From Flavisolibacter tropicus (GTDB lineage Bacteria > Bacteroidota > Bacteroidia > Chitinophagales > Chitinophagaceae), in contig NZ_CP011390.1 in assembly GCF_001644645.1 (NCBI RefSeq), positions 3,716,001 through 3,780,000 of the forward strand: a stretch of DNA of 64,000 nt, given 5' to 3'. The translations under genes were made by a program, and so were the position numbers. The notes under the pieces were generated by a model. It did not search any database, was not told the origin of the DNA, and saw only the letters and a list, made by a program, of their open reading frames with translations. Shown here piece by piece: positions 18,425 through 24,929 of this stretch (the first letter of the stretch is position 1; every line of letters begins with the position of its first letter).

Positions 18425-20983
18425 TTATCGAATCAGTATCACTGTTCCTTTTTGCTTATACACTTTATCGTCAAAGCCTACACATTCTACCATCCAGACG
18501 AAAGAGCCGGAGGCTTGTTGTTTGCCTTTGACCTTACCATCCCAGCCTTTTTGGGGATCAGTGGTGGTAAATACCTGTTCTCCCCAGCGGTTGTAGAGGG
18601 TAAAGTATTTAAAGGTTTTCATGCCGCGGGCCGTTACTTTCAGCACATCGTTTTTGCCATCGCCATCGGGTGTAAAAGCGGTGGGAACGTAGATGCCTGA
18701 TTTACCGGGGTCGGTTGGTGGCGGATCATCATCGGGATCGTTGCTAGTAGTGCAATCAGTCAGATCAAAGGTTCGGATTACCTGTGGGCCGCCACAAGCC
18801 TGGTCTACCTGGGCTTTGATCGTATAGGTGGTGGTTTTATCCAGCCCGGTAAAAATACCGGTGGTATTATGGGCCAGTTCGGTAGTGCCTTGATACAAAA
18901 TATAGATCAGGGTAGAACCAGTGGGTAGAGCAGGGGTTAGGGTAGCCTGTACAGACCCATTTTCACAGTCGCGTTTTAAAGGCAGTGTATAAATGCGCGA
19001 GGTACAATAAGAAGTAATATCAAAAGCACCTACAAAACCATTACCGGCTGCATATAGCATACGCTTGGCATTATCATAGGCAAGGTCATAAACAGCCGAT
19101 GTACTAAAACCCGCAATGCTGATATCAGGAGCAGCCGCATCGTCGAAACCGGTGCCGGTAAACTTATACACTTTGATCAAACCGTTTGAGGAACCCACAA
19201 ACACGTTATTACATTCATCGGCTATGATACCACCTTGCTTTAGCGGGGTATTCATGTTAATATTTACGGCAGCACCTACATTACTGCCATTGCTTTTGTT
19301 TAAGGCCGCCAGGTTATACCCGTCATAGTAAAACAGGTAGTTAGCATTTACCGCCAAGGCATTGATCGAGTTATCGTTCAATCCCGCACCCAGGTAAGGG
19401 CGATTGCTTCGTTCGCTTAAAACATTAAATCCAGACATGCGGTTCCATAATTGTTTAGAGGCATTATACGGTGGCGCATGTTTATACAGCCGGTTGTTTT
19501 CCGTAATGGGAGTAATAAAGCCTTGTGAGAAAATGCTGTATAGTTCGTTAGTGCGAGGGTCTATAATCAAGTCAGACATGTCCTGGTGGCCGGTGTGTTG
19601 CCCTGTAATATTCAGTGGCGACAGCGTGGTGGATGGCGGTGAGAAAATACCCAGGTTAATGTTCTCACCTACTGCGCCTCCACCGGCAATCATGATCTTG
19701 GGTGTACCACCATCACAGTTCCAAAGCATTTTCCAATTTTCCTGAAACACATTGTCGCGGGTAGTAATGTAGTTGTCATAAATTCCATCTGTATTCAAAC
19801 GCACTACCTGGAATATAACACCGCCTTGCCCCATGTAGATTTTTCCAGTAGATTTCTCAACCACCCAGCCACCGTAGTTAGTGCCGAATGTCCAAAGCGG
19901 ATTGGAAAGTGTGCCTGAAAATGTCCATAACAAATTGCCGTCTTTATTAAACTTGGCCAGTTGGTGAGGACCAAAACTGGTGCCGCCACCTGTTACATAG
20001 ATATTACCGTCGTAATCAAAGTCAACATCTTTGGCTATCCCCCTGTTAACACCTGTAAAATTGGCTACTGCCGTTACAAAAGGATCGACGATGAGTGTGC
20101 GCGTAGTATCATAGCTATCAGGCAGGCTCAAGTGAACATCACGTTGCTGAAGGGTAAACCGGGAACGGACTTTCGATTTATCATTTTGAGATGCAGCAGC
20201 CGTTTCATTACCATAATAACTTACCGGTGCCGTTTGTTTTATTATATCAATAGCTGAAACCAGTTTCAGATTGCCTTCGGCATCTAACTCCAGTTCTTTG
20301 ATCTCTCCACCCCAACGCATCTTCACCTGGCGCCAATCGGCTCCCGGATGAATAACAAACATATACTCGAAGCCTACCTTTTCTTGCTGTGTAAAACGGT
20401 AGATAAGGTCTATGCCCGGGTACAAATCTCTATACCAAAGTCTTTTAAACCCTTTGGCTTTTACAGGCAGCTTGCCATAGGTGAAATAGTTAGTGGTAGG
20501 CGCTTCTGCTACAATCACTGGCTTAGGATTGGCATTCAACCACTCCATCGTAATGGTGTTATTCTCGATAACAAACTGGTTCTCTTCCTTTTCATCCAGC
20601 AGGCCTTTACGCTCGGCTTCTTCCAATTCTTCCCCGGAGCGTTTTTCTACTTTCTGCTGCTGGTAAATAACGCCCTTATCCGTAAACAACACCGGCCAAC
20701 TCAAACCATTGTACGTAAAACGAATGGCACCTAGATGCTCATAGCTTTTTAGCATCTGTTCATATTGACCAATGTTTTCAATAAACACATGACTATCGCC
20801 AAAAAGATCACTATCCTTTTCCTTGGGTGCAAACGGCACTGGGCGATTAAATGGTGAAAGCACTTGTGTTTGAGAGGAGCGGGAAACTGCACTTTGTGAA
20901 AAAGCCTTGGGAGACCACATACATAGAATGGCCCCAAGCCCCATACAGGCAGCCGCCAAAGCGCTGGTTTTGGTTGTACGCAT
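18425..20983 (-). CDS. T9SS type B (CHU_C/gliding-type C-terminus) exported protein
   Basis: This 852-residue secreted protein has a signal peptide. An N-terminal region matches the DUF7948-type module that precedes repeat adhesins (RLWYRDLYPGIDLIYRF near 185). A propeller-like middle region has repeated FVGSSNGLIKVYKF-type strands. A Pro/Asp-rich linker DPDDDPPPTDPGK leads into the C-terminal sorting domain YVPTAFTPDGDGKNDVLKV ... LYNRWGEQVF ... GWDGK. That domain is typical of gliding-motility-associated (type B) type IX secretion substrates. It is probably exported to the surface. Its function there is unknown. Confidence 0.85.
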   Translation of the reverse strand: MRTTKTSALAAACMGLGAILCMWSPKAFSQSAVSRSSQTQVLSPFNRPVPFAPKEKDSDLFGDSHVFIENIGQYEQMLKSYEHLGAIRFTYNGLSWPVLFTDKGVIYQQQKVEKRSGEELEEAERKGLLDEKEENQFVIENNTITMEWLNANPKPVIVAEAPTTNYFTYGKLPVKAKGFKRLWYRDLYPGIDLIYRFTQQEKVGFEYMFVIHPGADWRQVKMRWGGEIKELELDAEGNLKLVSAIDIIKQTAPVSYYGNETAAASQNDKSKVRSRFTLQQRDVHLSLPDSYDTTRTLIVDPFVTAVANFTGVNRGIAKDVDFDYDGNIYVTGGGTSFGPHQLAKFNKDGNLLWTFSGTLSNPLWTFGTNYGGWVVEKSTGKIYMGQGGVIFQVVRLNTDGIYDNYITTRDNVFQENWKMLWNCDGGTPKIMIAGGGAVGENINLGIFSPPSTTLSPLNITGQHTGHQDMSDLIIDPRTNELYSIFSQGFITPITENNRLYKHAPPYNASKQLWNRMSGFNVLSERSNRPYLGAGLNDNSINALAVNANYLFYYDGYNLAALNKSNGSNVGAAVNINMNTPLKQGGIIADECNNVFVGSSNGLIKVYKFTGTGFDDAAAPDISIAGFSTSAVYDLAYDNAKRMLYAAGNGFVGAFDITSYCTSRIYTLPLKRDCENGSVQATLTPALPTGSTLIYILYQGTTELAHNTTGIFTGLDKTTTYTIKAQVDQACGGPQVIRTFDLTDCTTSNDPDDDPPPTDPGKSGIYVPTAFTPDGDGKNDVLKVTARGMKTFKYFTLYNRWGEQVFTTTDPQKGWDGKVKGKQQASGSFVWMVECVGFDDKVYKQKGTVILIR

Positions 20984-21281: not shown

Positions 21282-23273
21282 TTACTTCACATTATAAAGT
21301 AAGCTGGGCAGGTTAATTACTTTCTTGTCTTTCGTTATTGCCAGTCTGTCCCCAATGTATATCACATCACCAGCTTTAGCATTATCAATCAGGTTCTTAA
21401 CCTGGCTGTTCAGTTGAGAGTCATGTACTTTGACAAAGTGAATCGTCCCGCCTAGTTTACTAATCCGAAAAGTTGCGTTAATCATTACATAATCTGTATC
21501 GGGCTGTATAAGATTAGCAAAAGGAATATTTTGTAATTGCGGCACAGTAAGAGCTACGCCGGATTGAAGTACGACTGGAGGGATCGTATCATTCACTACT
21601 GCAGACATGTGTTTAGCATCAACATCATTGTTTTTTGCCGGAAGTTGCTTTTGATCTACAGTTTGTAAATATGCCTCAATACCTGCCAAGAGTTTACGAG
21701 CTACTTGTTGTTGGTTTTCTTTTTGAAGCAAATATGTCCGGTCTTTTGAATTAGATATATAACCACACTCTATTAAGATGGAAGGACAAGTGTTATTATT
21801 TAATACTCGTATCCCCACGTTGCGTTGTAACAGTTGCATTTTAGCCGGCACCGCTACAATTGTGTTTAATTGATCCAATACAGCCGAGCCCAACACTTTA
21901 CTCTGTTCAAAATATGACAATGTAGAATCTCTAGGAATAAATACATTGAAGCCGCGATGAGGATTTTCTATTTTGCCTGCATCTGTTTGTATAGGTGGTG
22001 CAGCACCCACATGAACTGAAACAAAAAGATCTGCCTGTTGTTTTGCAGCAAATTCTGCACGATCGTTCAGCTCCAGATATTCATCATTCTCACGCGTCAT
22101 GACAACCTCAATATTTGCATTGCTGTTTAATGCCTGTATTTCTTTTGCAATTGATAACGTAATATCCTTTTCAAAAATCTCGTTACTAAGCGTACCATTG
22201 TCATGCCCACCGTGACCGGCATCAATAACTATTCTTATCTTCTTTTTGCCTGTATACTTTACAATATTGATAACTTGCTTATCAACTGTTTCCGAATCTG
22301 ATTTAGCTTCTGACATACTATAAATCGCGTTAGCCGTTACACCGTTAGGAACAGCCTGCTTTGTCTCAGCTTTCGCATCTGTAGTAACATCTGACAGTTT
22401 TGCACGAACCGTAAAAGCCAGCGTTAATAGTGCCATCAACGGTAAAAAGAAAATCCGGCTGATGTAGTTTCTTTTGGGATTTTGAATCTTTGTAAGCATG
22501 TGTAGTCTTCGTTTTATAGACTGATTAAAGAAGGCATTGGTTAACTGGGAATAATGATGAGGATAAGCGGCTTGCAGAATCATGGCAGCTAAGGCAGATG
22601 CATCTTGGTCCTCCACCGCTTTGCGGTCGGCTATAAACTCATGCACCATTCGCAGCTCATAACGTATTAGCCAGAACACCGGATTGATCCAACAAATGAT
22701 CAATGCTATCTGTAAAAACAGTTTATCCAGTGAGTGTTTTTCCTCTACATGTACCATCTCATGTTGAAAGATCTGTTGTCCAGCTTCTGAGGTCATATCA
22801 ATGGAGGGGTTCCAAAACAGGAAGCGGAAAAAAGAGAAAGGCGTGCCCTTTGCCGAGCTAAAGATCAAGCGGAGTTTGCCTTGTTCGTGTACAGTATGTC
22901 TTTGCACCAGCCTATATATTTTTATAAGCGACAACAGCAAACCAATCAGTAAGATCATAGAAACAAAAGCATATAATAAAACGGCACTATAGGTTTTCCA
23001 AAAAGAAACTGTTACAGTGGGCAACTCTTCTTCAAAAGAACCACTTACGGTTACTACTTGCAGCACTAGTATCACCTGGTTTTGAGCTTCAGCTGAAGTA
23101 TGTGAAATCGTATAAGAAAAACACGGCATTAATAGTGAAAGCAGTACCGTGGCTAATAGATAAAAACGATTCCACTGATGAAAGAGTTTATTTCGAAGGG
23201 CCAGATAATAGTACAACATCAATAGGCCACTGCACAACACTACTTTAAGGAGATAGGGGAGCAAGGTTGTCAT
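21282..23273 (-). CDS. BlaR1-type M56 membrane protease fused to N-acetylmuramoyl-L-alanine amidase
   Basis: This 663-residue fusion has four parts. Residues 1-290 are an M56/BlaR1-like membrane protease with about four membrane segments, HEMVH at 171-175 and a downstream HEFIAD. A linker follows (about 291-345). Residues 347-537 form a complete Amidase_3 domain: VIDAGHGG with H354, E368, H421 in SVHVG and E502 in IECGY, the expected zinc ligands and catalytic Glu. A C-terminal domain of about 120 residues ends in a strand-rich region that resembles a GldM-type C-terminal fold (tentative). The gene overlaps a BlaI-type repressor by 4 bases. BlaR1 relatives sense cell-wall stress and cleave BlaI. 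Here the sensor domain is replaced by an amidase that could bind or cut peptidoglycan. Confidence 0.9.
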   Translation of the reverse strand: MTTLLPYLLKVVLCSGLLMLYYYLALRNKLFHQWNRFYLLATVLLSLLMPCFSYTISHTSAEAQNQVILVLQVVTVSGSFEEELPTVTVSFWKTYSAVLLYAFVSMILLIGLLLSLIKIYRLVQRHTVHEQGKLRLIFSSAKGTPFSFFRFLFWNPSIDMTSEAGQQIFQHEMVHVEEKHSLDKLFLQIALIICWINPVFWLIRYELRMVHEFIADRKAVEDQDASALAAMILQAAYPHHYSQLTNAFFNQSIKRRLHMLTKIQNPKRNYISRIFFLPLMALLTLAFTVRAKLSDVTTDAKAETKQAVPNGVTANAIYSMSEAKSDSETVDKQVINIVKYTGKKKIRIVIDAGHGGHDNGTLSNEIFEKDITLSIAKEIQALNSNANIEVVMTRENDEYLELNDRAEFAAKQQADLFVSVHVGAAPPIQTDAGKIENPHRGFNVFIPRDSTLSYFEQSKVLGSAVLDQLNTIVAVPAKMQLLQRNVGIRVLNNNTCPSILIECGYISNSKDRTYLLQKENQQQVARKLLAGIEAYLQTVDQKQLPAKNNDVDAKHMSAVVNDTIPPVVLQSGVALTVPQLQNIPFANLIQPDTDYVMINATFRISKLGGTIHFVKVHDSQLNSQVKNLIDNAKAGDVIYIGDRLAITKDKKVINLPSLLYNVK

Positions 23274-23632
23274 TTTTTACCCTTTTTTAGTTGTTTTAAT
23301 AAGAGTTCCAATTCCTCTACACTTACTGACTTTTCCTTGACCATAAAAGAAACCGCGTCACTAAAGGAACCGTCAAAGTAGTTTTTCACTACACTCTTAA
23401 TAGATGCTTTTGAATAAGCCTGCTTAGAAACTAACGGATGATACTGATGTTGACGCCCAAACACTTTGATCCCAACAAATTCTTTTTCTATCAGGATTTT
23501 TAACATAGTAGCTACTGTGTTTTGGTGAGGCTTAGGCTCTGGCAAAGCTTCAATTACATCTCGTATAAATCCTTCACCAATCTTCCATAGCGCCTGCATT
23601 ACCTGTTCTTCTGCTTTGGTTAATGTTTTCAT
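23270..23632 (-). CDS. BlaI/MecI/CopY-family repressor
   Basis: This 120-residue winged-helix protein has the family features LTKAEEQVMQALWKIGEGFI and KPHQNTVATMLKILIEKEFV. It also has the cleavage/dimer region near AYSKASIKSVVKNYFDGSFS. It should repress its own operon until cleaved by the protease encoded next to it. The stop overlaps the fusion gene start (ATGA). Two near-identical inverted operators lie 26-61 bases upstream of its ATG, over the promoter. Confidence 0.93.
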   Translation of the reverse strand: MKTLTKAEEQVMQALWKIGEGFIRDVIEALPEPKPHQNTVATMLKILIEKEFVGIKVFGRQHQYHPLVSKQAYSKASIKSVVKNYFDGSFSDAVSFMVKEKSVSVEELELLLKQLKKGKK

Positions 23633-23648
23633 CTTGTTACTATTGAGA

Positions 23649-23693
23649 CAAATCTATAACTAATTATTTAGTTTAACAACTAATAATTTAGTT
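23649..23693 (-). promoter_or_regulatory. blaI promoter with paired BlaI-type operators
   Basis: On the minus strand TTG (23677-23679), 20 bases, then TAGATTTG (23649-23656) make a full Bacteroidota promoter. Two 16-base near-palindromes of the form AACTAAT(T/A)ATTTAGTT lie at 23658-23673 and 23678-23693. Their centres are 20 bases apart. One fills the spacer and the other covers the -33 end, as expected for a BlaI/MecI-type repressor. Confidence 0.85.
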
Positions 23694-23699
23694 ATACAA

Positions 23700-24143
23700 G
23701 TTATGAGCGCCGGATTTGACATTTACAATTGTCTGTCTTTGTAAGAAAGCAATAAGGACAGCCTTCTTTTAGATGTGAATCCGATGTTGAAGCCAGTTCA
23801 GCATGACAGCATAGAGTCGTTACATTTAGCAGTCTTATTTTCAGTTGTGAGTCGCTGAGATCCTTCACTGCGTTCAGGATGACAAAAGGGACCGCGGATG
23901 GATCAGAATTAAGGATTAGCAGGATTAGGTACCTGCAAGTTTACCATTTCTTATAGTGGAAACCCTGCCTATACAGCAAGAGCGGACAAAGTAAAAAGTG
24001 ACATCAGCCATTCTTTTAAATCCTGCTAATCCATTCTAAATCTCACTAATCCGTGATCCTCCTTTTATCCTTTGCTCTGTGTGAAATCAACCTTCCTATC
24101 TCAATAGGTCCCCTTTTTGATGGTAGATACTAAACGCTGTAAC
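23700..24143. repeat. intergenic region with GGATTAGCAGGATT phrases
   Basis: GATCCTTCACTGCGTTCAGG (23858) also occurs, inverted, near 34340. AAGGATTAGCAGGATTAGG (23910) faces an inverted set AATCCTGCTAATCCATT (24020). No gene is visible. Confidence 0.6.
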
Positions 24144-24929
24144 ATGAAAAGCAAGGCCCATTTTAAATCTCATCCCTTACACCCGATACTTATTTCTTTT
24201 CCCATTGCCTTCTTTATTGGTACATTGATAAGTCATGCTGGTGGTTTGTATTTGGATAACGAGGAATGGCTGACCACTGCTACCTGGCTTAATGCAGCAG
24301 GCATTATAGGTGCAGTGTTGGCCGCTGTTCCAGGCTTTATTGATTACCTGTATACAGTACCTCCGCGGAGCTCGGCAAAGAAACGTGCTTCACTACATGG
24401 TCTGCTGAACACATCAATGCTTGTTCTTTTTGTCCTTTTGTTTTATTACCGCAGACAAGCCATGCCTAGTCAGTTGTTTCTGCTAACAGGAGAATTGATT
24501 GGAGTAGTGATTATGACAATTGCAGGTTGGATGGGTGGTACATTGGTACACCGCAACCAAATAGGCATAGATATGCGTTATGCTAATGCCGGCAAATGGC
24601 AGGAAGCCTATTTCTCTCCCGACAGCAGCACTCTTGAAGTAGCCGATACCAGCGATTTAAAAGTAAATGCTATGATGTTGCTGCATATCAATGGCAAGCG
24701 CATTGTACTGGCCCGCACAGAAGAGGGTTATGCTGCCTTTGATGATCATTGCACGCATCGTGGCGGCTCATTAGCTGGCGGCAGCCTTATTTGTGAGACG
24801 GTACAATGTCCCTGGCATGGCTCACAATTCTCTGTAAAGACGGGAGAGGTTACTGCTGGGCCTGCCAATATGGGCATTACGACTTATCCTGTAACGGAAA
24901 AAAATGGTAAGCTCTGGCTTAAGCTTTAG
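24144..24929 (+). CDS. DUF2231 membrane protein with C-terminal Rieske domain
   Basis: This 261-residue protein fuses a DUF2231 membrane domain to a Rieske [2Fe-2S] domain. The membrane domain has the SHPLHPILISFPIAFF start and about four membrane helices through residue 135. The Rieske domain starts near 160, with ligands C203/H205 in CTHRGGSL and C222/H225 in CPWHG. Such a protein could pass electrons at the membrane, but no partner gene is adjacent. The ATG at 24144 matches the family start, and an ATG at 24120 in frame is an alternative. Confidence 0.88.
   Translation: MKSKAHFKSHPLHPILISFPIAFFIGTLISHAGGLYLDNEEWLTTATWLNAAGIIGAVLAAVPGFIDYLYTVPPRSSAKKRASLHGLLNTSMLVLFVLLFYYRRQAMPSQLFLLTGELIGVVIMTIAGWMGGTLVHRNQIGIDMRYANAGKWQEAYFSPDSSTLEVADTSDLKVNAMMLLHINGKRIVLARTEEGYAAFDDHCTHRGGSLAGGSLICETVQCPWHGSQFSVKTGEVTAGPANMGITTYPVTEKNGKLWLKL

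Follow-up and report, generated by a model that had tools for sequence, protein, structure and literature searches.

We analysed a 64,000-nucleotide stretch of the Flavisolibacter tropicus genome (contig NZ_CP011390.1, positions 3,716,001 to 3,780,000; hereafter, the window), in which a BlaI-type repressor gene is followed by a gene that joins a membrane M56 protease, a peptidoglycan amidase of the Amidase_3 family and a PorM/GldM-like domain in one chain. The fusion is real and more widespread than the preliminary description of this DNA had supposed. We read it, with a probability of roughly 0.5, as a BlaR1-type receptor-protease that uses the amidase as its external sensor and whose M56 domain cleaves BlaI to derepress its own operon. 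The ligand, the direction of the signal, the cleavage of BlaI and the enzymatic activity of the fusion are all features that we infer.

Both features of M56 membership, HExxH and ExxxD, are present in the fusion (Pfam Peptidase_M56, residues 160–260, E = 5e-11, 42.7 bits, cut-off 31), and the NCBIfam blaR1 model matches at residues 159–284 only, with 20 of 400 bits. The Amidase_3 match (residues 348–533, E = 4e-42) comes with the two His and one Glu zinc ligands, the catalytic Glu and the fold of that family, and it lies in the place of the C-terminal transpeptidase (penicillin-binding) sensor, for which Pfam gave no match in the fusion at E 0.01. The best NCBIfam match of the amidase is CwlD, below the cut-off (97 of 221.55 bits). 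A self-inhibitory insert as in AmiA/B/C, taken to fall after the last zinc His and before the catalytic Glu, was not found in the fusions: this spacing is 65–82 residues in 121 distinct fusions versus 134–165 in 24 of 31 distinct stand-alone amidases (from 33 rows, in which two genes occur twice). The domain is a compact Amidase_3. The preliminary description had given the order M56, Amidase_3 and a "further C-terminal domain", with HEMVH at residues 171–175 and four amidase active-site residues. Pfam and the open reading frame (ORF) coordinates agree with that order, the motif is present, H354, E368, H421 and E502 align with solved amidases and are conserved in relatives, and the last domain is there, now likened to PorM/GldM.

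Table 1 Features of the fusion gene, its repressor gene and their control region, in window coordinates.
Feature	Position	Strand	Evidence or remark
M56 protease–Amidase_3–PorM/GldM-like fusion gene, 663 aa	21282..23273	-	ORF, Pfam, AlphaFold2 model, fold matches
BlaR1-type membrane/M56 module, residues 1–292	22398..23273	-	
H171EMVH175, gluzincin motif	22749..22763	-	H171, E172, H175 in 123/123 distinct fusions
E212FIAD216, third zinc ligand motif	22626..22640	-	E212 in 123/123 distinct fusions
Linker from last membrane segment to amidase, residues 293–344	22242..22397	-	mostly low confidence
Amidase_3 domain, residues 345–540	21654..22241	-	zinc ligands H354, E368, H421; catalytic Glu E502
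PorM/GldM C-terminal-like domain, residues 562–663	21285..21590	-	
blaI-type repressor gene, 120 aa	23270..23632	-	Penicillinase_R PF03965, E = 4e-29; MecI structures by sequence, E = 2e-6
Proximal putative operator ACTAATTATTTAGT (+ strand letters)	23659..23672	.	sequence
Distal putative operator ACTAATAATTTAGT (+ strand letters), 20 bp from proximal	23679..23692	.	sequence
Promoter-like TTG-N20-TAGATTTG, proximal operator inside spacer	23649..23679	-	sequence motif

The hydrophobic segments of the fusion lie at residues 2–20, 39–57, 99–117, 182–200 and 271–289, the fourth of them within the protease part, to be compared with the re-entrant loop of BlaR1, and the structure model matches the BlaR1 fold. 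Across 140 fusion rows the predicted inside loops are positive (mean Lys+Arg/Asp+Glu 3.5/0.1, 4.2/1.2 and 6.7/0.1) and loop 2, predicted to be outside, is acidic (1.8/5.1). From hydropathy, the positive-inside rule and the fold match, an N-out/C-out plan as in BlaR1 is predicted, with the protease in the cytosol and the amidase outside the cytoplasmic membrane; a cytoplasmic amidase was the outcome that the preliminary description had named as speaking against its proposal. BlaR1 itself is N-out/C-out, its protease site lying in the cytosol and its sensor outside, according to the available text of PMC9834060.

The overlapping repressor gene and the two operators on its promoter, both proposed at the outset, are likewise borne out. 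blaI and the fusion gene share 4 bp, ATGA, and blaI combines a Penicillinase_R domain with putative palindromic operators, recognised by sequence, at its own promoter. These operators are kept in relatives: ACTAN6TAGT precedes blaI in every one of the 97 fusion loci that have 100 nt or more upstream, in two or more copies in 95 of them. As the control pattern occurred once in the same regions and shuffles gave 0.35, the operators are not due to chance. (Operator, blaI-adjacency and FtsE-neighbour counts include ten duplicated loci; conservation counts use distinct sequences.) The motif was also found in 11/11 examined promoters of M56-only genes. Within the 5,940,863-base genome of the window, the two window operators are the only exact ACTAANNNNTTAGT sites (16 for the pattern read backwards), and the looser ACTAN6TAGT has 65 sites versus 242 for the reversed control. 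The pair ACTAN6TAGT-N6-ACTAN6TAGT occurs once in this genome and in nine of ten genomes searched (seven once, two twice, none in G068). Where it occurs twice, the second site lies away from M56, near a thiolase-like gene (L140, genome G028) or a lipoprotein-like gene (L150, G239), both named by eye, with no clear target.

A promoter-like motif, TTG-N17-22-TAnnTTTG, which we take to be of the Bacteroidota -33/-7 consensus type, was detected in half of the upstream regions (54 of 108, compared with a mean of 0.65 in shuffles and 3 on the other strand), and the operator falls between its two elements in 54/54. This placement argues for promoter occlusion by the repressor, which on such motif evidence appears well supported in about half of the regions. 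blaI adjoins the fusion in 99 of 100 cases. Two further blaI–M56 pairs in the window genome have no such operator sites in front, and the same genome contains a fourth blaI-type match, which is weak and interrupted by a stop codon (G000, C1:4612548–4612799, L044).

With a threshold of E 1e-40, M56 relatives were found in 163 of 294 Chitinophagaceae genomes, in a scan that scored at most four candidates per genome. The fusion was present in 51 of the 109 relatives' genomes examined, which were taken, from the end most like the query, out of 162 other matching genomes; it was found in 19 of the 29 best matches other than the window and in 32 of 80 further regions, to which each genome contributed one, following the order of the list (82 M56 proteins; the list ended at G071, and G073 and second matches per genome were skipped). 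These 51 genomes span 30 genus codes, and open fusion frames also occur outside the 109, at G007, G026 and G027. Named isolates with the fusion are Flavisolibacter ginsengisoli, Agriterribacter humi, Ginsengibacter hankyongi, Lacibacter luteus, Ferruginibacter paludis, Flaviaesturariibacter flavus, Sediminibacterium goheungense and Pollutibacter soli. A genome-collection scan returned 331 relatives, of which the best 80 were all fusions (79 beside blaI, one at a contig end), so that this set gives no rate. In a 395-genome sample of the phylum, with two candidates scored per genome, 11 genomes of other families matched: three fusions (L167, L168 and L169), all with blaI and falling in two further families, and eight M56-only proteins. 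Within the genus of the window, the fusion occurs in G104, and the M56 proteins of G004 and G269 lack the amidase; an FtsE-like gene adjoins the locus in each of the three. Both forms stand in tandem at L100 (1478–5893), where a blaI–M56 pair without amidase is followed by one with it. The preliminary description had called the coupling of repressor release and wall hydrolysis new to its author; the fusion is common in the family, and a full-text search limited to open PMC papers found no description of an M56–amidase fusion.

Residue conservation was counted from matches to a profile first built from alignment A2, which was chosen by the motif DA[GA]HG. HExxH and E212 are intact in 123/123 distinct fusions, as are H354 and E368, and H421 is kept in 122/122 readable ones. 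E502 is kept in 112 of 121 readable fusions and is otherwise Gln (7), His (1) or Gly (1). The nine fusions that lost it (L018, L019, L050, L053, L056, L076, L080, L094 and L195) retain the zinc ligands, and a minimum of 8 changes on the tree is required to explain the losses versus 8.8 for shuffled labels, i.e., they are scattered. Two operators each were found in eight of the nine, the eight covered by the operator survey (L195 fell outside it). Zinc site and circuit therefore persist where the catalytic base is gone. This agrees with a role in binding or as a receptor, for which hydrolysis would be usual but apparently dispensable, and the loss of Glu with zinc ligands, protease site and operators kept counts against hydrolysis as an essential step. 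For CwlD, the available text of PMC8496864 reports that partner binding does not require Glu199, the putative catalytic residue, and that loss of a His or Glu zinc ligand weakens binding.

The history of the amidase was traced on quick FastTree trees with long branches flagged. The M56 tree comprises 194 distinct domains, of which 123 are joined to an amidase and 71 are not; the presence of the amidase has to change at least 24 times (11 changes forced by well-supported branches; 58 with shuffled labels). On the amidase tree the fused domains need 3 changes versus 30 when shuffled, which makes the fused amidases look like a near-single lineage, often lost and perhaps regained. In G013 (L269 1348–2163 and L186) the amidase is encoded by a gene of its own, whose product has a hydrophobic stretch at the N-terminus, 146 bp upstream of a blaI–M56 pair without amidase. 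Its nearest tree rows are fused, but no well-supported branch places it there; the arrangement is a possible fission of the fusion. The G013 operators separate the amidase gene from blaI and do not precede the amidase, which bears on an account in which the amidase is the output: M56–BlaI would sense another cue, using either its own membrane part or the C-terminal end, and induce a membrane-tethered hydrolase. The membrane domain may license the activity of this hydrolase, just as the Staphylococcus aureus amidase LytH needs its transmembrane activator ActH. This operator position, together with the scattered Glu losses that keep zinc ligands and paired operators, makes such an output role rather unlikely.

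The C-terminal ends are variable. Alone, the window domain matches GldM_4th at E = 7e-4, below the Pfam cut-off; the relatives L062 and L068 match GldM_3rd above the cut-off, L068 also GldM_4th below it, and a profile from four such tails matches PorM structures (E = 2.5e-7). Sequence and fold together place the window domain with GldM_4th. Of 62 fusions drawn at random from 114 complete fusion frames (the window replacing its own copy, L152), 26 end in TonB_C, 20 in a Plug-like domain and 2 in GldM_3rd, and a few are nearly tailless. TonB_C and Plug were each found in 38 of 69 M56 proteins without amidase, the truncated M56 fragments L187 and L248 having been dropped before the tally. Peptidase_M23, a second wall hydrolase family, also matched in one of the 62. 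As TonB_C binds outer-membrane receptors and the other tails resemble PorM/GldM, both kinds of end could extend to the outer membrane. This variety, and the repeated changes in amidase presence on the M56 tree, would suit a passive tether, with the amidase and the ends merely holding or positioning the protease in the envelope and the signal coming from elsewhere; we think this improbable, as a tether need not keep its zinc ligands in every readable member or its Glu in nearly all.

Of the 91 fusion loci with sufficient flank, 43 have a divergently transcribed FtsE-like ATPase gene (best NCBIfam match FtsE) on the far side of the operators, e.g., L016 287–997 on the minus strand; so do 3 of 10 M56-only loci. 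FtsEX governs amidase activation in E. coli, and synteny within one family may only be inheritance. A wider, unseen regulon of wall synthesis, division or antibiotic tolerance genes, reached through diverged operators and with the amidase incidental to the output, could draw on this gene and on the second paired sites in G028 and G239, but is very improbable: neither the exact operators nor the operator pair recur elsewhere in the window genome, the FtsE-like gene of that genome (415 kb) is not beside the fusion (3.74 Mb), and the FtsE match (233 bits) is below the equivalog cut-off of 264.85.

In the receptor reading that we prefer, the membrane M56 domain would face the cytoplasm and the compact amidase the periplasm, with the PorM/GldM-like end (TonB_C in many relatives) directed towards the outer membrane. 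The amidase groove would bind stem peptides of the wall, and a change in its occupancy or in tension, for example on uncrosslinked or detached wall, would pass through the membrane helices to M56, which would then cleave BlaI. Release of BlaI from paired operators that overlap its own promoter would yield more repressor and more receptor-amidase, and since the amidase would also cut in most members, sensor and effector would be one molecule. This suggests a wall enzyme that reports on the wall and turns on its own production. More speculatively, and with considerable doubt, the protein may be a trans-envelope gauge, consisting of an inner-membrane protease, a wall-gripping amidase and an outer-membrane end, in which a mismatch between layers or groove occupancy leads to BlaI cleavage and self-amplified enzyme. 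Catalysis would be optional in such a gauge, and an enzyme would therefore have been turned into a receptor several times with its metal site kept.

Several observations weigh against the receptor reading. M56-only proteins make up 71 of the tree's domains; because they keep the protease site (HExxH and the third Glu in 69 aligned proteins) and the operators, the basic circuit can do without the amidase. The conservation of the catalytic Glu in most fusions is more than a pure sensor would require, and stand-alone amidases keep it in 31/31 distinct genes, too few for a significant contrast with the fusions. The domain orientation in the AlphaFold2 model is not reliable: the mean predicted local distance difference test score (pLDDT) is 79.1 and the predicted template modelling score 0.57, with pLDDT <50 at residues 288–325 and 329–331, in the linker. 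Diverged operators may exist at other genes, as the looser sites in the genome allow. By spacing, the position of BlaR1 Asp210 (H201+9) is His180 in the fusion, and the available text of PMC9834060 calls Asp210 near strictly conserved. His180 is invariant in alignments A2, A3, A4 and A5 and is a mark of this subfamily.

If the receptor reading is true, the M56–BlaI pair would be a general wall-sensing chassis with exchangeable heads, and the fusion a simple genetic system for asking which wall state is sensed, with the natural variants that lack the catalytic Glu as ready-made tests of sensor versus effector. As for the neighbourhood, the downstream gene, ~300 bp away (window 18425–20983, minus strand), encodes a DUF7948 protein with a CHU_C type IX secretion signal, and a DUF2231 membrane domain fused to a Rieske iron-sulphur domain is encoded at 24117–24929 (plus strand), both by Pfam.

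LytH–ActH is a two-protein system, whereas that of the window is one chain; ActH is not M56 but rhomboid-like, and we know of no BlaI-type repressor for that system. CwlD, which works with GerS, is likewise an Amidase_3 enzyme without the AmiA/B/C insert, and zinc binding and partner binding are linked in it (PMC8496864, in the available text). Unlike the fusion, CwlD is a spore enzyme with a lipoprotein partner and has no protease or transcription control in the same chain. According to a review (PMC9662197), combinations of M23 wall hydrolases with M56 exist among the other-domain architectures that together make up <1% of hits, and a role of M56 in wall cleavage has not been demonstrated; their hydrolase family differs from Amidase_3. 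With PorM/GldM of type IX secretion and gliding, the window protein shares the last domain only, a domain likeness.

The closest plan is that of BlaR1/MecR1 with BlaI/MecI in staphylococcal and bacillar beta-lactam induction, an M56 receptor with its repressor, BlaR1 being the textbook receptor-protease that reads an antibiotic. The fusion differs in having Amidase_3 where BlaR1 has its penicillin-binding sensor, in its added PorM/GldM-like or TonB_C end and in its operator, ACTAAN4TTAGT; no beta-lactamase or penicillin-binding protein gene lies under this operator, because no second exact or paired operator occurs in the window genome. The distance H171–E212 is 41 residues, as for H201–E242 in BlaR1, and D216 matches D246 (BlaR1 motif from the available text of PMC9834060). 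From the accessible parts of the respective sources, BlaR1 cleaves BlaI directly without further components (PMC9834060), and a wall-turnover dipeptide binds BlaI/MecI and destabilises the DNA complex (PMC3305447); an amidase joined to the receptor could bear on both views. As the fusion has a BlaR1-like plan but not the sensor that defines BlaR1, we file it as a variant of the M56–BlaI kind of receptor.
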